Shown here: positions 28,692 through 36,525 of the stretch, in pieces
Position numbering within the stretch: the stretch's first letter is position 1
Layout of the letters: each line of letters opens with the position of its first letter
DNA from: Sphingobacteriales bacterium 46-32
GTDB taxonomy: Bacteria > Bacteroidota > Bacteroidia > Chitinophagales > Chitinophagaceae
Direction of reading: 5' to 3'
Assembly: GCA_001898485.1 (NCBI GenBank)
Contig: MKTY01000019.1
Coordinates: 558,001 to 622,000, forward strand
Length of the DNA stretch: 64,000 bases
Program-made: the position numbers and the translations under genes
The notes under the pieces: generated by a model
What the model saw: only the letters and a program-made list of their open reading frames with translations
What the model was told of the DNA's origin: nothing
Database searches by the model: none

Positions 28692-29216
28692 ATGAAATCT
28701 GTATTCTTAATAGCCATTGCCATAACAGCTGGTTTGACAGCCTCGGCGCAGGGTGGTGGAGATAAATCAAAACGCCCCAGCCCCCCCGCACAGGCCAAAG
28801 AAACGCTTAAAGGCGGTACAGTTGTTACCATCGATTACAGCCAGCCTTCTTTAAAGGGCCGCACTATCGGTAAGGATGTAGAACCCAATCCCGGCCAGGT
28901 TTGGCGCGCAGGTGCCAATGAGGCCACCGTTTTTGAAGTAAGTAAACCCGTACGTGTGCAGGGTAAAGAACTGCCAGCCGGTAAATATGGTTTCTTTACT
29001 ATTGATAATGGCGACGAATGGACCATTATTTTTAATAAGACCTATAACCAGTGGGGAGCATATGAATACAAGGCAGCAGATGATGTGCTGCGGGTAAATG
29101 CCAAAGCCGGCAAAGCAAGTCCCGTAGCCGAAAAACTAACCTATTCCATCAGCAAAGATGGTAAAGTAACGCTCAGCTGGGGAGATAAACAAGTGAGCTT
29201 CAAGATAGACGGATAA
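28692..29216 (+). CDS. DUF2911 domain secreted protein
   Basis: A 174-residue protein with signal peptide MKSVFLIAIAITAGLTASAQ. DUF2911 features are clear: VTIDYSQPSLKGRTIGKDVEP, GQVWRAGANEATVFE, ELPAGKYGFFTIDNGDEWTIIFNK. The fold is predicted to be beta-rich and the function is unknown. It is common in Bacteroidota as a periplasmic protein. A strong terminator follows 20 bases after the stop. Confidence 0.9.
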   Translation: MKSVFLIAIAITAGLTASAQGGGDKSKRPSPPAQAKETLKGGTVVTIDYSQPSLKGRTIGKDVEPNPGQVWRAGANEATVFEVSKPVRVQGKELPAGKYGFFTIDNGDEWTIIFNKTYNQWGAYEYKAADDVLRVNAKAGKASPVAEKLTYSISKDGKVTLSWGDKQVSFKIDG

Positions 29217-29280: not shown

Positions 29281-29346
29281 CAGTTCATTTGAAAGCAGTC
29301 TCCGTGCAACGATTGCTGAAAAATGATTGTCATCCCGTTTCAATAA

Positions 29347-29907
29347 ATGGATCAGATAAGATTAGTTAAAGAGTGTTTAAAAGGCAAACCGCAGGCGCAG
29401 CGTGAGCTGTATGAGCTCTATGCAGACGTCATGCTGGGCGTATGCTATCGCTATACCCGATCCATGCGCGATGCGGAGGATGTACTACAGGAAGGTTTTG
29501 TAAAAGTATTTCATCACCTGGGTCAGTATAAGCAGGAAGGCGAACTGGGGGCCTGGATACGTCGTATTATGGTCAATACGGCACTCAACTATCTTAAACG
29601 CCATCGCAAATACCAGGAAGGGATGTTCTTTACAGAAGAATACCTGCACCCGGTAGTGGAGGATGACCCCGCTGAGCGTATTCAGGGAAAGGAACTGGCC
29701 GATCTGATCCGTCAGCTTCCGCAGGGTTACCAGGTTATTTTCAACCTTCATGCGGTAGAGGGGTACACACACGTAGAAATCGGTGAAATGTTGGGGATCA
29801 GCGATGGTACCTCCCGGTCTCAATATGCCCGGGCGCGTAATTTGCTGATAACCTGGATCGATAAATATTCGGCAGAAAAGAAAAAGTCGAGATATGCAGG
29901 AAAATAA
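29347..29907 (+). CDS. ECF-type RNA polymerase sigma factor
   Basis: A 186-residue sigma-70 family protein. Region 2 reads RELYELYADVMLGVCYRY and DAEDVLQEGFVKVFHHL; region 4 reads LPQGYQVIFNLHAVEGYTH and EIGEMLGISDGTSRSQYARA, a helix-turn-helix. It lacks the FecR-type neighbours of nutrient-responsive sigma factors. Its stop codon lies inside the next gene, whose start overlaps by 14 bases, so the two are translationally coupled and the downstream protein is the likely regulator. The regulon is unknown. Confidence 0.93.
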   Translation: MDQIRLVKECLKGKPQAQRELYELYADVMLGVCYRYTRSMRDAEDVLQEGFVKVFHHLGQYKQEGELGAWIRRIMVNTALNYLKRHRKYQEGMFFTEEYLHPVVEDDPAERIQGKELADLIRQLPQGYQVIFNLHAVEGYTHVEIGEMLGISDGTSRSQYARARNLLITWIDKYSAEKKKSRYAGK

Positions 29908-31444
29908 ATTCGAAAAGCAGGTAAGAGAAGAAATGGAGGAGTTTCGGATTCGTCCTTCTGCAACCGTATGGGAAAGCGTGGAGGAGGAACTGCGCCGCAA
30001 AAAACGGCGAAGGGTTGTCGTCTACTGGTTTCTACTGGCAGCCATTGGCCTGGGCGCATATGGCGTCTATCATCTTTTGGCACCAGCCCTGCCGGAGCCT
30101 TCCACTCCAATTTCACTGCAAAAGAAACAATCCACTGACCAGGCTGCATCATCGGCAGATCAGCACACACCGAATCGGCAGATCTCAACCGGTTTACCGG
30201 CGAACGGATCTGGTGCAGGTAATAAACCCACAGATAATATTGTTTCGTCAACAACAAAAAATAATATAGGTATTGCCGTTAACAGCAACGATAGAAAGTT
30301 TTCTGTACAGGAGGCTGACCGGGCGCAGTTGGAAACAACTTCACGGAAGACCGGGAAAAATAAATCTGAAACGCATAAGCAGGCTATTGCAGGCAACGCT
30401 TCTGGCAGACAGTTGTCAGGCAAGCCAATCAGTACTCCTGTTAATAAAAATGAATCCGCAAAAACCAATACCCGCACATTAAATATTTCATCGCCTGTGG
30501 CCCTTAATCCGGTGGAAAATAAGGAAACCGGTAAGCTGGCACAAACGGAAGCGGCTGCAGAAGAATCTCAGACTGATGCCACAGCTTCAATAGCAGATCA
30601 TGATCTCGTAAAGGATAGTTCGACTGTTAGCAACAATCACCAGGATCTGCCTGAAAATCCACGCACACCGATTACTGTCAGCCGTCGGCGTATACAATGG
30701 CGGATTGAGGCTGGTATCGGCGCCGGCAACCGTATGGATAAAGCCTTGCCTTCTCTTTTTGCAGCAGAAAAACTGATGGATGTAAACAATCTTCCTGCTT
30801 ACGGTGCTGTCAATGGTGGCATTCCGGCCCCACGCCCTTTACTCCTACCGTCGGAGTCAAAAGTTTCGGTAGGTTTCAAAGTCGGTGTGCAGGCGAGTAT
30901 ACCTGTTGGCCGGAAAATAAATCTGCTGGCCGGCCTGCGCTATTCTTACAGGAGTGACCGGATTGCGGTAGGCGGTCTGTTAGATTCATCAATAGTTGCT
31001 CCTCCCGGTTTATCCAACAATCCCCTGGGTACAGCCAACAGGGCCTACCAGTATCAGGGAGCGCCACATCAATCTGTCACCAACAGTTATCATTTTATTC
31101 AATTGCCGGTACAATGGCAATTACAGTTAAATAAAGGCCGGGTAATGCCGATTACCTGGGAGATAGGAGTTACTCCAGGCTGGCTGATACATACCAATGC
31201 AATGGTATACGATACGTCTTATTACGGTATTTATTATCGGGATAAAGAGGCATTCAGCCGGTTCCAGCTTCATGCCGAAACAGGATTTTCACTTCACCTG
31301 GGCAATAAGTCGAAATGGCGCTGGTCAATTGGCCCCGAATTTAATTTTGCCCTCACTCCTTTGATAAGGAATGCTTACGATCCACGCCAGTTTCTGCTAT
31401 ATGGAGGATTGCGCGCGCAGATTCAGATACCAGGAAGGCGATAA
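29894..31444 (+). CDS. anti-sigma-like membrane protein with C-terminal beta-barrel domain
   Basis: A 516-residue protein overlapping the sigma gene by 14 bases. Residues 1-35 form a charged cytoplasmic segment (FEKQVREEMEEFRIRPSA, VWESVEEEL) of the sort that follows ECF sigma genes in Bacteroidota and probably binds the sigma factor. One membrane helix follows at about 40-58 (VVYWFLLAAIGLGAYGVYHLL). Residues 60-255 are a Ser/Thr/Asn/Lys-rich, disordered linker. From about 262 to 516 alternating strands (WRIEAGIGAGN, GFKVGVQASIPVG, LLAGLRYSYRSDRI) suggest an outer-membrane PorT-like barrel. The protein would thus span from cytoplasm to outer membrane. The topology is inferred. Confidence 0.75.
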   Translation: MQENKFEKQVREEMEEFRIRPSATVWESVEEELRRKKRRRVVVYWFLLAAIGLGAYGVYHLLAPALPEPSTPISLQKKQSTDQAASSADQHTPNRQISTGLPANGSGAGNKPTDNIVSSTTKNNIGIAVNSNDRKFSVQEADRAQLETTSRKTGKNKSETHKQAIAGNASGRQLSGKPISTPVNKNESAKTNTRTLNISSPVALNPVENKETGKLAQTEAAAEESQTDATASIADHDLVKDSSTVSNNHQDLPENPRTPITVSRRRIQWRIEAGIGAGNRMDKALPSLFAAEKLMDVNNLPAYGAVNGGIPAPRPLLLPSESKVSVGFKVGVQASIPVGRKINLLAGLRYSYRSDRIAVGGLLDSSIVAPPGLSNNPLGTANRAYQYQGAPHQSVTNSYHFIQLPVQWQLQLNKGRVMPITWEIGVTPGWLIHTNAMVYDTSYYGIYYRDKEAFSRFQLHAETGFSLHLGNKSKWRWSIGPEFNFALTPLIRNAYDPRQFLLYGGLRAQIQIPGRR

Positions 31445-31513
31445 AAGAGTATAAAGGGTTTAAAGCGAATGTTTCCCCTTTAAACCCTTTATACTCTTTA
31501 TACCCTTTATACA
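31444..31513. repeat. 22-bp perfect hairpin of GTATAAAGGG words between convergent genes
   Basis: Arms at 31444-31465 and 31478-31499 are exact reverse complements with a 12-base loop. The right arm continues into a further ATACCCTTTATAC copy. It lies between the stop codons of the barrel protein and queG and may act as a bidirectional terminator, though it has no dedicated T-run. It belongs to the same class of short-word repeats as 12675, 17686 and 59920. Confidence 0.8.
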
Positions 31514-31514
31514 T

Positions 31515-32450
31515 TCACTCCCCCTGCTGAATAAACTTCACATTCCGCTGCAATCCTTTCCATTTGCTGCGTTTCAAAGGAGAATGCTGAAAGATTTTTT
31601 TGAACTCTTCTTCTGTGAGATCCTGCCAGTCCTGCGTACTCAGGTTAAGAATAGCCGGAATGGGTGCAAACGCGGGCTCCTGGTGAGGCTTACTGAAACG
31701 GTTCCAGGGGCATACATCCTGGCATACATCACAGCCAAATACCCATTTACCAAACTTGCCTTCCTGTGTTGCGGGCAACAACGCATCTTTTAACTCAATG
31801 GTGTAATAGGAAATACACTGACTGCCGTTTATAACCGGGCCAGGCAGGATGGCGCCGGTAGGGCAGGCATCGATACAGCGCGTACAGGTACCGCAATAGT
31901 CGCCCTGGAAAGGAGCATCAGGTTCCATGTCCAGGTCGGTGATCAGTGTTGCAATAAAAAAGAAAGAGCCGGCAGTACGGTTAATAAGGTTCCCGTTTTT
32001 TCCAACCCAGCCCAGCCCGCTATTAACCGCCCAGGACCGCTCCAGCACCGGAGCCGAATCTACAAAGCCCCGCCCCTGGATCTCGCCGATTTCATCACGC
32101 AGTATGCTCAGCAGCTCATTGAGCTGACTCCTGATTACTTCATGATAATCTTTGCCGAAAGCATATTTCGAAATACCCGGAGCATCTGGTTGCTGCCGTT
32201 CTGCCGGATAGTAATTTTTAAGCAGTGTAATCACTGAGCGTGCACCAGGCACCAGCAGGGTAGGATCCACCCGCAGATCAAAATGATTTTCCATGTATTT
32301 CATGGCACCCTGGTAACCGGCTTTCAGCCAGCTCTCTAACCGGTAAGCATCTTCATCAAGCCGTTTGGCGGCAGCAACACCACAAAAATCAAATCCCAGA
32401 CGCAGTGCGTGAGATTTTACTTTTTTTGAATATGATACCCGGTCTGCCAT
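31515..32450 (-). CDS. queG: epoxyqueuosine reductase
   Basis: A 311-residue iron-sulfur and cobalamin-dependent enzyme for the last step of queuosine synthesis in tRNA. It carries two ferredoxin-type cluster motifs, CGTCTRCIDACPTGA and CDVCQDVCPWNRF, and the N-terminal pattern GFDFCGVAAAKRLDEDAYRLESWL. YAFGKDYHEVIRSQL and GRGFVDSAPVLERSWA supply the cobalamin/substrate region. Length and motif order match QueG throughout; it lacks the C-terminal HEAT-repeat extension seen in some members. A perfect -7 element lies 28 bases upstream of the ATG. Confidence 0.96.
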   Translation of the reverse strand: MADRVSYSKKVKSHALRLGFDFCGVAAAKRLDEDAYRLESWLKAGYQGAMKYMENHFDLRVDPTLLVPGARSVITLLKNYYPAERQQPDAPGISKYAFGKDYHEVIRSQLNELLSILRDEIGEIQGRGFVDSAPVLERSWAVNSGLGWVGKNGNLINRTAGSFFFIATLITDLDMEPDAPFQGDYCGTCTRCIDACPTGAILPGPVINGSQCISYYTIELKDALLPATQEGKFGKWVFGCDVCQDVCPWNRFSKPHQEPAFAPIPAILNLSTQDWQDLTEEEFKKIFQHSPLKRSKWKGLQRNVKFIQQGE

Positions 32451-32546: not shown

Positions 32547-34556
32547 ATGAAGTTCATCCTGCTTATTATAAGCTTGCTTACTGTGGGCGCTACAGCCACG
32601 GTTGCCCAGGATAAAGTGCCCGTAAAATTCGGGAAGGTATCGCCAGGAGATTTTGCCCCTAAAGTATACAGTATCGACAGCAATGCCAATGCCGTCGTTA
32701 TTGCCGATGTAGGCTCCACAGAAATTGTAGGTAATACCAAAGGTTGGTTTTCCCTTGAATTTAAAAGATACCGCCGCGTACATATTCTTAATAAAAACGG
32801 ATATGACATCAGCAATGTCACCATTTCACTATATACCTCCGGCGATGACGAAGAAAAGCTTGAAAACTTAAAAGCAGTCACCTACAATCTCGAGGATGGA
32901 AAGGTGAAAGAGACCAAACTGGATACCAAATCAGGTGTTTTTAAAAACAACGTCAGCAAAAAATGGACAGAGCGTAAATTTACCTTTCCGGATGTACGCG
33001 AAGGCTCTATTATCGAATATGAGTACCGGATCAAATCCGATTTTTTGTTTAATCTGCGTTCCTGGGAGTTTCAGGGCAGTATTCCCCGGTTGTGGAGCGA
33101 ATACACCGTCACCATCCCCCAGTTTATTAATTACGTATTTATGATGCAGGGATACATGTCGCCTGCAGTCAGGGAAAATAAGGCCGGCCAGCAGGCATTC
33201 TCGGTTACTGCTTCTGGTGGCACCGGAGCATCTGAACGATACAACTTCACTGCCAATACACAAACACACCGCTGGGTATTCAAGGATGTGCCTTCATTAA
33301 AGGAAGAAAGTTTTACCTCTACCCTGGATAATCATATTGCTAAGATAAACTTTCAATTATCCGAATACAGGGAGCCGCTTACTTATCGTAATGTAATGGG
33401 AACCTGGACTCAGCTGGCAAAAGATCTGCTGGAGGCCGATTATTTTGGAGAAGGCCTCCGGAAAGACAACAACTGGCTGGGCGAATATATTGGCGACCTG
33501 GTAAAAGCCGGTGGTTCAAAAAAAGAAATTGCCCAACGAATTTATAAGTATGTACAGGATAATTATACCTGTACCAGCCACAACGGACTTACTATAAGTC
33601 AGAACCTGCGCAATATTGCCAAATCAAGAAAAGGGAACGTAGCAGAAATAAATCTGCTGCTGACGGCCATGTTACGCTATGCAGATATCAAAGCCGATCC
33701 GGTGATCATGAGCACCAAATCAAACGGATATACTTATTCTCTTTATCCGTTGATTAATCTGTTCAACTATGTAATCTGCGAAGCCCGACTTGATGAAAAA
33801 ACTGCATTTCTGGATGCCAGCTGGCCGCGCCTGGGTTTTGGAAAACTCACATTTGATTGCTACAATGGACATGCACGTGAGATTAGTGCGGATGCTCCGC
33901 CATTACAGTTTGTAGCTGATTCCCTCATGGAACGAAAAGTAACTTCCGTATTTATTATTAATGATGAACAGGGTAAATTGATTGGCTCACTTCAGCAGAC
34001 ACCGGGTTATTATGAATCATACCGGCTGCGTAACCGCCTGGCAGAAAAAGGTAAAGAACAATTTTTTACAGAGGCAGCCAAAACACTTCATTCCGACGCA
34101 GTAATCCAGGATCCGTTTATTGACTCACTGGACATGCTGGATATGCCCGTTAAGGTACAATACAAGTTTGCCCTCAATTCAGAAAAAGAAGATATCATCT
34201 ATTTCAACCCCATGTTTGGTGAAGGGTGGAAAGAAAACCCTTTCAAGGCCGCAGAGCGCCTCTATCCGGTAGAAATGCCTTTTGCCTTCGATGAGACTTA
34301 CCTGCTGCGTATGGATGTGCCGGCAGGGTACGAGGTTGATGAACTGCCTAAGCAATTGGTGGTAAAATTGAATGAGTACGATGAAGGAGTGTTTGAATAC
34401 CGTATTACCAATTCCAATGGTGTTATCTCACTTCGCAGCCGGCTGCGCCTGAGCCGCGCCAATTTTCAGCCAGATGAGTATGAACTGCTGAGAGAGTTTT
34501 TCAGCATGGTAGTGACCAAGCATAACGAACAAATCGTATTCAAAAAGAAAAAATAA
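32547..34556 (+). CDS. DUF3857/transglutaminase-fold protein, catalytic residues absent
   Basis: A 669-residue secreted protein with signal peptide MKFILLIISLLTVGATATVAQ. An N-terminal DUF3857 beta-sandwich (YRRVHILNKNGYDISNVTISL and following) precedes a transglutaminase-like core (IYKYVQDNYTCTSHNGLT) and a C-terminal beta domain. Where the next gene has the catalytic cysteine (GDCKALSNY), this one has GNVAEINLLL with Val365; His is replaced by Tyr408 (FNYVICEA), and the Asp position reads DASW. It is therefore probably not a transglutaminase or protease but a binding or scaffolding paralogue. It is 19 bases upstream of the intact paralogue and clearly in one operon. Confidence 0.88.
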   Translation: MKFILLIISLLTVGATATVAQDKVPVKFGKVSPGDFAPKVYSIDSNANAVVIADVGSTEIVGNTKGWFSLEFKRYRRVHILNKNGYDISNVTISLYTSGDDEEKLENLKAVTYNLEDGKVKETKLDTKSGVFKNNVSKKWTERKFTFPDVREGSIIEYEYRIKSDFLFNLRSWEFQGSIPRLWSEYTVTIPQFINYVFMMQGYMSPAVRENKAGQQAFSVTASGGTGASERYNFTANTQTHRWVFKDVPSLKEESFTSTLDNHIAKINFQLSEYREPLTYRNVMGTWTQLAKDLLEADYFGEGLRKDNNWLGEYIGDLVKAGGSKKEIAQRIYKYVQDNYTCTSHNGLTISQNLRNIAKSRKGNVAEINLLLTAMLRYADIKADPVIMSTKSNGYTYSLYPLINLFNYVICEARLDEKTAFLDASWPRLGFGKLTFDCYNGHAREISADAPPLQFVADSLMERKVTSVFIINDEQGKLIGSLQQTPGYYESYRLRNRLAEKGKEQFFTEAAKTLHSDAVIQDPFIDSLDMLDMPVKVQYKFALNSEKEDIIYFNPMFGEGWKENPFKAAERLYPVEMPFAFDETYLLRMDVPAGYEVDELPKQLVVKLNEYDEGVFEYRITNSNGVISLRSRLRLSRANFQPDEYELLREFFSMVVTKHNEQIVFKKKK

Positions 34557-34575
34557 TATTCAGCAATTAGTCCTG

Positions 34576-36525
34576 ATGATGAATAATAAAACAACAGCGG
34601 GGAAATATCTCCTGAGCTTTGTGGCTGTATTGCTTTCATTGACCGGCATAGCAGCAGATGGAGAATACAGCGTTGCCCGCATTCCGCAGGCATTGCTTAA
34701 AAATGCCAATGTGGTACGCCGCCTGGAAACAGAAGAATTTATTCTCAAAAATCCCGGAGAGGCAACCTATAAGCACAAAATAGTACTGACTATTATGAAT
34801 GCTGCAGGCGATGGGTATGCAGGCCTCGTTCACTACTATAATAAATTTGTAGAGATAAAATCAATAGAAGGATACCTGTATGATGCAAACGGGAAAGAGC
34901 TGAAGAAGCTTAAGAGCAAGGATATTCAGGATAGAAGCGGTCTGGATGATAACAATCTGATCGATGACACCCGCTATAAGGAGCATAATTTCTATTATAA
35001 AGTATATCCTTATACCGTGGAGTATGAGGTAGAGCTTAAGTATACAGGTACCATGTTTTATCCAGACTGGTACCCGCAGCCCTACCAGCTGCAGTCTGTG
35101 CAGGAAAGCCGTTTTGTGCTCACCTGTCCGGAAAATTATGAGTTCCGTTATAAAGCATATCAGTACGATGGACAGCCTGCTGTAGCTCCGGGCAAAGGCA
35201 CCAAGTCGTACACCTGGGAGATAAAGAACCTGCCGGCTTTTTCACGGGAGGTATACGCGCCCGGTAACCGTCGTCTTCGCCCGTTGGTATTGTTTGGTCC
35301 CACAGAGTTTGAAATGCAGAATTACAAAGGCAATATGCGCAACTGGGAAGACCTTGGTAAATTTATTTATGCCCTGCGACAGGGCCGGGATGAATTGCCC
35401 GATGATGTGAAGAAAACAGTTCACCAGTTGACAGATAATCTGACCGATCCTGCTGCCCGGGTAAAAGTCTTATATGAATTTTTGCAGCAAAACTCCCGCT
35501 ATATCAGTATTCAGTTGGGAATCGGCGGCTGGCAGCCATTTGATGCAAAATTTGTAGCAGCCAAAAAGTATGGCGACTGCAAAGCGCTTTCCAATTATAT
35601 GCTGGCTCTGCTGAAAGAAGCCGGGATACCGGGTCTGTATACGGTAATCTCCGCAGGTGAAGGAAGAGAGGATATTTTTACTGATTTTCCTTCTTCACAA
35701 TTTAATCATGCTATTGTTTGTGTACCCCTGGCAAAAGATACCCTCTGGCTGGAGTGTACAGATCAGTTCAAATCCTGCGGCTATATGGGAGGTTTTACCG
35801 GCAACAGACATGCTCTGGTAGTCGACGAAAACGGTGGCAAACTCGTACGCACTCCGCTATACAGTATGAGTGAAAACAGGCAGGTTAGAAATATAAAGGC
35901 AACGCTCGACGAAGCAGGTGACCTGCTGCTAAAGGCAAATACGCTGTATACCGGTATGCAACAGGACGATCTGCATTACCTGCTCACGCGGCTCAGTAAA
36001 GACAAGTTAAAAGAGCATCTTACTGAAGAACTGAACTTTGCTACGTATAATATCAACAGCTTTGATTATAAGGAAGAGAAAGCCCGGCTTCCGCATTTAC
36101 AGGAAACCCTGGATGTATCTGTACGCGGTTATGCCAGTATAACAGGTAAACGTCTTTTTATCGTGCCTAATATCATGTCCAAAGCAGGGTCAAGACTTGA
36201 TAAAGATACGGCCCGAAAATACCCTATTGAGCTTCGGTATGCTTATGTAGATATTGACACAGTAACGATCGAACTGCCTGCTGGGTTCACACCGGAGTCG
36301 GTGCCTGCAGAAAATAAAATCAGCAGCATTTTCGGGCAGTATACCTGCTCTGTAAAAGTAGAAGGAAATAAGATGATGTATTACCGAAAATTAGAACATG
36401 CCGGCGGACTCTTTGGGGCATCTGCTTACGAAGAACTGGCTAAATTTTATGAAGCGATTTATAAAGCCGATCGGGCCCGGGTCGTACTCACACGTACGGA
36501 AGCCCCACCGGCCAAAGGTTTTTAG
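34576..36525 (+). CDS. DUF3857/transglutaminase-fold protein, catalytic triad intact
   Basis: A 649-residue secreted protein with signal peptide ending near LSLTGIAADGE. DUF3857 occupies roughly residues 45-230 (YKHKIVLTIMNAAGDGYAGL, YYKVYPYTVEYEVEL). The transglutaminase-like core has Cys335 in KYGDCKALSNYM, His378 in FNHAIVCVPL and Asp396 in LWLECTDQ, a complete Cys-His-Asp triad. It may act as a cysteine protease or crosslinking enzyme in the periplasm or at the surface. The tandem arrangement with its inactive paralogue suggests the two proteins work together. Two adjacent ATG codons at 34576 and 34579 are equally possible starts. A terminator follows. Confidence 0.9.
   Translation: MMNNKTTAGKYLLSFVAVLLSLTGIAADGEYSVARIPQALLKNANVVRRLETEEFILKNPGEATYKHKIVLTIMNAAGDGYAGLVHYYNKFVEIKSIEGYLYDANGKELKKLKSKDIQDRSGLDDNNLIDDTRYKEHNFYYKVYPYTVEYEVELKYTGTMFYPDWYPQPYQLQSVQESRFVLTCPENYEFRYKAYQYDGQPAVAPGKGTKSYTWEIKNLPAFSREVYAPGNRRLRPLVLFGPTEFEMQNYKGNMRNWEDLGKFIYALRQGRDELPDDVKKTVHQLTDNLTDPAARVKVLYEFLQQNSRYISIQLGIGGWQPFDAKFVAAKKYGDCKALSNYMLALLKEAGIPGLYTVISAGEGREDIFTDFPSSQFNHAIVCVPLAKDTLWLECTDQFKSCGYMGGFTGNRHALVVDENGGKLVRTPLYSMSENRQVRNIKATLDEAGDLLLKANTLYTGMQQDDLHYLLTRLSKDKLKEHLTEELNFATYNINSFDYKEEKARLPHLQETLDVSVRGYASITGKRLFIVPNIMSKAGSRLDKDTARKYPIELRYAYVDIDTVTIELPAGFTPESVPAENKISSIFGQYTCSVKVEGNKMMYYRKLEHAGGLFGASAYEELAKFYEAIYKADRARVVLTRTEAPPAKGF

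Follow-up and report, generated by a model that had tools for sequence, protein, structure and literature searches.

The window, a stretch of 64,000 nucleotides from the genome of Sphingobacteriales bacterium 46-32 (5.49 Mb in 27 contigs), contains an ECF sigma factor gene overlapping a gene, here called dma, that is predicted to encode an anti-sigma factor of the Dma type. The features of the locus are listed below.

29305..29332, + strand: predicted promoter of the sigma factor's own class, TGCAACG-N15-TTGTCA, 14 nt before the sigma ATG
29347..29907, + strand: ECF sigma factor gene, 186 aa (Pfam Sigma70_r2 and r4_2)
29894..31444, + strand: whole gene of the predicted Dma-type anti-sigma factor (dma), 516 aa (open reading frame, Pfam, AlphaFold2, profile comparison)
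29894..29907, + strand: overlap of the sigma gene and dma, 14 bases (open reading frame coordinates)
29894..30013, + strand: residues 1-40, predicted cytoplasmic sigma-binding domain (model, aligned N-termini, profile comparison)
30014..30088, + strand: residues 41-65, predicted inner-membrane helix with KKRRR just before it (hydropathy; helix 23-65 in the model)
30101..30652, + strand: residues 70-253, predicted disordered linker rich in Ser, Thr, Ala, Asn and Lys (pLDDT below 50; composition)
30686..31429, + strand: residues 265-512, predicted 8-strand outer-membrane barrel (Pfam, AlphaFold2, Foldseek, VIA-align)
31444..31499, no strand assigned: long, terminator-like hairpin between dma and the convergent gene (-30 kcal/mol, z -9.1)

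The gene pair and its paralogue

The sigma factor matched Sigma70_r2 (4.5e-16) and Sigma70_r4_2 (2e-14) in Pfam. It was 84% identical to a protein of Terrimonas pollutisoli, and its closest named relatives were Chitinophagaceae. The nearest plausible gene upstream is a 174-aa open reading frame that ends at 29216, and beyond the hairpin downstream of dma lies a convergent gene (31515-32450); the pair thus seems to stand alone. At 32547-36525, two neighbouring genes encode secreted proteins (669 and 649 aa) that are possibly DUF3857/transglutaminase-like.

A preliminary description of this DNA had reported that the sigma gene overlaps the next gene by 14 bases, and both open reading frames were indeed found with 14 bases in common. 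It had also suggested surveying other genomes for the same overlap. Among 48 pairs, 30 of them from relatives and 18 from named genomes (sets that are partly the same organisms, without de-duplication, and that include two pairs of a paralogous clade), an overlap was present in 45/48; it was exactly 14 bases in 32/48, 11 bases in seven and 17 bases in four. As so many pairs overlap, and most by exactly the same length, the overlap is not due to chance.

The paralogous clade is represented in the source genome by a second Dma-type pair (L004:3133-5192; G000:C24:67132-69191, - strand), in which a gap of 26 bases replaces the overlap and the promoter element differs. In a tree of sigma factors with 54 rows, both clades were well supported (100/100 and 100/99), and the source genome holds one system of each. 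The paralogous clade has a gap between the sigma gene and the second gene, with no overlap; the overlap is a trait of the clade of the window pair.

A second, internal start making two separate proteins had been named as a result that would speak against a single chain. The in-frame ATGs of dma are at codons 1, 14, 281, 295, 418 and 437, and the in-frame GTG or TTG codons are at 29, 62, 146, 174, 202, 207 and later. This candidate was rejected because the ATGs at codons 281 and 295 fall within the barrel domain, and no hydrophobic export segment follows any of the GTG/TTG codons from 146 to 207, so that an internal start would not yield an exported, complete barrel. No start that fits two separate proteins was found.

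Domains and family of the 516-residue protein

The 516-aa protein was modelled with AlphaFold2 as one chain only, with 40 relatives from named genomes as input. The model has helices at residues 5-16 and 23-65, the second running through the membrane segment, and eight strands of at least 11 residues each between residues 268 and 512. Most 10-residue blocks of the strands had a pLDDT above 90, and the loops were lower. Residues 70-253 had a pLDDT below 50, with the exceptions of positions 102 and 207, and it is because of this disordered linker that the overall mean pLDDT was only 67.2. The composition of the linker was computed on residues 66-255. In the N-terminal part, residues F6, P21 and W26 were invariant in 28 aligned N-termini; when the paralogous clade was added (41 proteins), only M1 and W26 were invariant.

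The C-terminal part matched OMP_b-brl_2 at residues 321-491 (34.7 bits versus a cut-off of 27), with a further match to DUF6850 below its cut-off. VIA-align gave its best agreement with an OmpA model (Z 15.9, rmsd 3.1 over 167 residues), and other 8-strand barrels also scored highly (OmpA crystal structure 15.2, NspA 14.2, PagL 14.0, OmpW 13.4), versus up to 9.9 for unrelated barrels such as PsbO of photosystem II. A sequence search against solved structures returned one match for the 516-aa protein (E 0.27). The C-terminal domain is thus predicted, on the model, to be an OmpA-type 8-strand outer-membrane barrel.

These results supported the layout in the preliminary description, which had proposed one membrane helix (residues 41-65 by hydropathy), a disordered Ser/Thr/Asn/Lys linker of about 200 residues (predicted disorder extends over about 190) and an outer-membrane-barrel-like C-terminus (Pfam, AlphaFold2 and VIA-align agreed on the 8-strand barrel, and the modelling and profile searches gave no non-barrel fold). 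By the positive-inside rule, the KKRRR before the helix would place the N-terminus inside, and the even number of strands would place both ends of the barrel in the periplasm. The proposal that one chain extends from the outer membrane to the cytoplasmic sigma factor was likewise supported: judged by sequence and model, a single chain probably bridges the inner and outer membranes.

The chain might instead span both membranes when it is made and then undergo constitutive cleavage in the linker, leaving the barrel and the anti-sigma piece to act separately. A linker predicted to be disordered would, in principle, be easily cleaved. However, the equivalent stretch was 155-250 residues long in 30 aligned relatives and never shorter, as a spanning tether needs, and the published model of the relatives is one chain (PMC13088901); both points are also compatible with cleavage, and we regard this alternative as unlikely.

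A one-chain layout agrees with a known family. Dma factors have been described as an anti-sigma domain, a membrane helix, a disordered tether and a barrel, encoded next to an ECF21 sigma gene (Pardue 2026, PMC13088901). In Bacteroides thetaiotaomicron, Dma1/Das1 and Dma2/Das2 have the adjacent ECF sigma gene and the same four-part layout, and the loss of Dma1 induces nigD1 (PMC13088901). The window protein has an adjacent ECF sigma gene, an N-terminal domain, a membrane helix with a disordered tether, and a C-terminal barrel.

For the family comparison, NigD_N matches served to pick presumed Bacteroidaceae, an assignment that is inferred from NigD and not from names. NigD_N was matched in 6/198 genomes, four of them in one family, as well as in Bacteroides ihuae among the named controls; the source genome had no match. 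The sigma profile of the window clade was matched in 13/21 genomes of the presumed Bacteroidaceae family and found sigma genes beside Dma-like genes there. Of 23 such sigma loci, 14 were followed by a protein of the Dma layout and were aligned, two of these (L222 and L223) adjoining a nigD gene. The remainder were five sigma-fused frames, one truncated locus (L208) and three loci where the rule used recognised no Dma-like frame downstream (L209 and L228, with short frames only, and L229, whose frame of 269 aa lacked a clear membrane helix).

In a single hhalign comparison of full-length profiles with these relatives (1.9e-23), the barrel part alone was aligned, at about 10% identity. A single comparison of the N-termini with 13 presumed Bacteroidaceae N-termini (L230 was left out; the B. 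thetaiotaomicron proteins were not among them) gave 5.2e-9 over 33 columns. By its sequence and model, the window protein is a member of the Dma family from Chitinophagaceae, with inhibition of the sigma factor predicted.

The N-terminal match also bears on whether the gene could encode a barrel protein with a long, cleaved signal peptide and no anti-sigma function, merely co-transcribed with the sigma gene. OMP_b-brl_2 barrels are common in the source genome, with 18 matches, 16 of which are in frames of 195-324 aa; however, only two are in long frames (530 and 486 aa), and both of these are beside a sigma gene. A signal peptide would not conserve F6, P21 and W26 in 28 sequences, residues 1-40 match the N-termini of proteins with the Dma layout from presumed Bacteroidaceae, and in 45/48 pairs the start of the gene lies within the sigma gene. 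We consider this reading very improbable. Cell-surface signalling of the FecI/FecR type, with receptor and anti-sigma factor in one fusion protein, would likewise bring together a sigma factor, an anti-sigma part and an outer-membrane part, but it is scarcely credible and was rejected, as the barrel is predicted with 8 strands, the 516-aa protein had no FecR or TonB-dependent receptor match in Pfam at E ≤1 (only OMP_b-brl_2 and DUF6850), and the sigma factor reached 83 bits against TIGR02985, below the cut-off of 126.4.

A search of 99 genomes (relatives and the source genome) found the protein in 43 at E ≤0.001. A sigma gene was close upstream in 30 of the 31 best-scoring proteins, which are the top matches of that search together with the paralogue and not a random sample; L014, for which no sigma gene or proper start was found, was excluded from the alignments. 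In a phylum-wide draw, the profile was matched in 75/296 genomes at 1e-5, a tally that carries no domain claim, as many matches were partial and often covered just the low-complexity linker. Among named genomes, 80 loci yielded 78 proteins downstream of related sigma genes (L067, with a short downstream frame, and L080, with the sigma gene off the contig end, are absent), and in 77/78 a hydrophobic stretch lay within residues 1-130, with frames extended upstream where the ATG was late. When the window protein was added to the 78, OMP_b-brl_2 was matched in 37/79 and CHU_C in 13/79 at E ≤0.001.

Two variations were noted in passing. In L220, L224, L225, L226 and L227 of the presumed Bacteroidaceae, a single frame joins the sigma domain to a long C-terminal part, and a clear hydrophobic stretch follows the sigma domain in four of the five; these frames recall Dma3, for which a sigma fusion has been reported (PMC13088901). 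By eye, two tandem copies of the N-terminal anti-sigma-like motif precede the membrane helix in L094, L095 (read from 4518), L107 and L130 (read from 4530), and the tandem motif was also seen in L098 and L134.

Promoter elements and predicted targets

The element TGCAACG-N15-TTGTCA has its sole perfect match in the window at 29305..29332; with up to two mismatches, there were four matches in the window versus 1.77 expected. In 37 de-duplicated upstream regions of the window clade, the exact element was present in 22/37, GCAACG-N16-TGTCA in 27/37 and a loosened form in 30/37, a count that is not an independent test, as the element was defined on the same upstream sequences and the clades were assigned before the tree. 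The remaining 7/37 lacked even the loosened form. Each of the three forms was found in 0/22 upstream regions of the paralogous clade (in the counts of 37 and 22, L033 is in neither clade, and loci with fewer than 120 bases upstream were not used). Of the loosened-form sites, 28/30 end 13-23 nt before the annotated sigma start. Before de-duplication, TGCAA-N19-GTCA was present in 34/41 upstream regions, near-duplicates included. The paralogous clade has its own element, GCAGC-N14..16-TGTC[TC], in 17/22 of its upstream regions and in 0/37 of the window clade; in the whole source genome this element occurs at one site, the paralogue's own promoter.

A backward control and random positions are closer to an independent test of the promoter element. 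In 10 genomes, chosen for good Dma matches, TGCAACG-N16-TGTCA was found at 44 sites versus three for the backward control. When one mismatch was allowed, the excess was weaker (12 versus 4, 10 versus 8 and 12 versus 5 in three genomes of the genus). Of 34 distinct sites, 26 had a frame of 100 or more codons, opening with ATG, within 50 nt; the 34 are not all independent, as six sites of the source genome are matched by counterparts in its sister, G001. By a crude hydropathy and lipobox rule, with no trained predictor, 20 of these 26 frames had a secreted or lipoprotein-like start; five were the sigma gene itself and one was of another kind. Near the other 8/34 sites, within the same distance, such a frame was lacking. 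At random positions in the same loci, any such frame was found in 401/3,691 cases, and one with a secreted or lipoprotein-like start, by the same rule, in 75/3,691. The predicted regulon is rich in secreted proteins and lipoproteins.

The source genome has seven sites of the pattern, 6/7 with a counterpart in the sister genome. One lies before the sigma/dma operon and one, at 149 nt, before a glycosyltransferase; the others precede two secreted proteins of 239 and 328 aa, a DUF2807 lipoprotein and two short proteins whose starts resemble those of lipoproteins. Among the predicted targets, only the glycosyltransferase and the DUF2807 protein had Pfam matches. The promoter and the target list provide a concrete means of finding the signal of the switch. 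In one relative, L199, a second copy of the promoter (G030:C11:483324-483351) lies just downstream of dma and precedes an LVIVD-repeat lipoprotein-like gene.

A putative one-chain switch and its variants

A switch that is held off at the inner membrane, and released when its outer end is disturbed, fits the layout, the homologues and the autoregulatory promoter. The gene layout, the domains, the family link, the promoter element and the enrichment of sites before genes of secreted proteins were all obtained by computation; sigma binding, actual insertion in both membranes, the signal and a proteolytic release are proposed. Taken together, the sequence and model point with high probability to an envelope-spanning anti-sigma switch made of one chain. 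Residues 1-40 would hold the sigma factor at the cytoplasmic face, and residues 41-65 would fix the chain in the inner membrane, with its N-terminal end on the cytoplasmic side; the linker would cross the periplasm, and residues 265-512 would form the barrel in the outer membrane. Most likely, damage to the outer membrane, or a failure in the assembly or retention of the barrel, would cause the anti-sigma factor to be lost or cleaved. From TGCAACG-N15-TTGTCA-like promoters, the freed sigma factor would then transcribe its own operon along with a few genes for secreted proteins, lipoproteins and the glycosyltransferase, and newly made Dma would close the loop.

That the signal is barrel or outer-membrane stress is a plausible suggestion which we hold with somewhat less than even confidence; the signal and the release step are carried over by analogy from work on Bacteroidales and not from the Chitinophagaceae lineage. 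In Phocaeicola vulgatus, 15 genes form a regulon that is turned on when the anti-sigma gene of the pair M0N98_03760-61 is lost, and the same regulon is induced by a toxin believed to cause envelope stress (Evans 2022, PMC9308784). The toxin induces further genes too, a good many of which also respond, as is known, to a BamA inhibitor; the authors favour envelope stress as the likely signal (PMC9308784). This pair is like the window pair in being a sigma/anti-sigma pair whose anti-sigma factor is predicted to span the periplasm with a barrel end; its function was studied through mutants and toxin induction (PMC9308784), whereas the window pair is known from its sequence alone and is likened to it by layout. 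The B. thetaiotaomicron proteins (PMC13088901) differ from the window protein in belonging to another order of the phylum; the source genome lacks a NigD_N match and has its own promoter element and predicted targets.

FecI/FecR/FecA also passes an outer-membrane signal to an ECF sigma factor, but does so with three proteins, including a TonB-dependent receptor, rather than one chain. EcfO of Bacteroides fragilis, which Ndamukong 2013 is said to have linked to oxidative stress, is a further related system. Evans 2022 (PMC9308784) calls EcfO and its partner a similar pair, and its likeness to the window pair comes only through that description. The preliminary description had set the architecture apart from the usual three-protein FecA/FecR route, and the novelty that this implied did not hold, as the architecture is already in Evans 2022 (PMC9308784) and Pardue 2026 (PMC13088901).

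The founding paper on Dma is reportedly Pardue 2024 in PNAS. The presence of the family outside Bacteroides, including Chitinophagaceae, may already be implied there, since Pardue 2026 (PMC13088901) places Dma factors solely among Bacteroidota. In the open-licence literature, at the level of titles and abstracts, no description of the sigma/dma pair in Chitinophagaceae was found; the present analysis places this class of one-chain switch from outer membrane to cytoplasm in environmental Chitinophagaceae. That literature, searched mostly through titles and abstracts, likewise yielded no mention of the promoter elements specific to each clade, of the predicted targets or of the sorting-domain versions; these three are what we present as new.

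The sorting-domain versions end in CHU_C, a type IX secretion sorting domain, in place of the barrel (L087, L091, L092, L097, L098, L102, L111, L112, L114 and L134). These ten of the 13 CHU_C proteins were examined singly, and all ten were above the Pfam cut-off; three also had a PKD domain above its cut-off, preceding CHU_C. The variants are mostly from Flavobacteriales, Fluviicola (L097) being one example. Their N-terminus and hydrophobic stretch resemble the Dma start, and their sigma factors are 41-48% identical to that of the window.

In Flavobacterium psychrophilum, genes for type IX secretion share an ECF-type promoter set with one ECF sigma/anti-sigma pair (PMC9723704). No open-licence paper was found that pairs an anti-sigma factor with a gliding motility-associated C-terminal domain. 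We speculate that the CHU_C sorting domain reports on type IX secretion. Should the variants function as their parts imply, a switch of this kind could keep track of protein secretion besides the outer membrane. More broadly, and quite tentatively, Bacteroidota may possess a modular class of trans-envelope anti-sigma factors, in which the N-terminus, helix and tether are kept and the outer end is either a barrel or CHU_C, the latter form reporting on type IX secretion; clade-specific promoters would let two systems in one genome, such as those of the source genome, read separate regulons. In at least L091, L097 and L111, there is no ATG near the sigma stop and the open frame runs back into the sigma gene; for want of such an ATG, these three may use another start codon.
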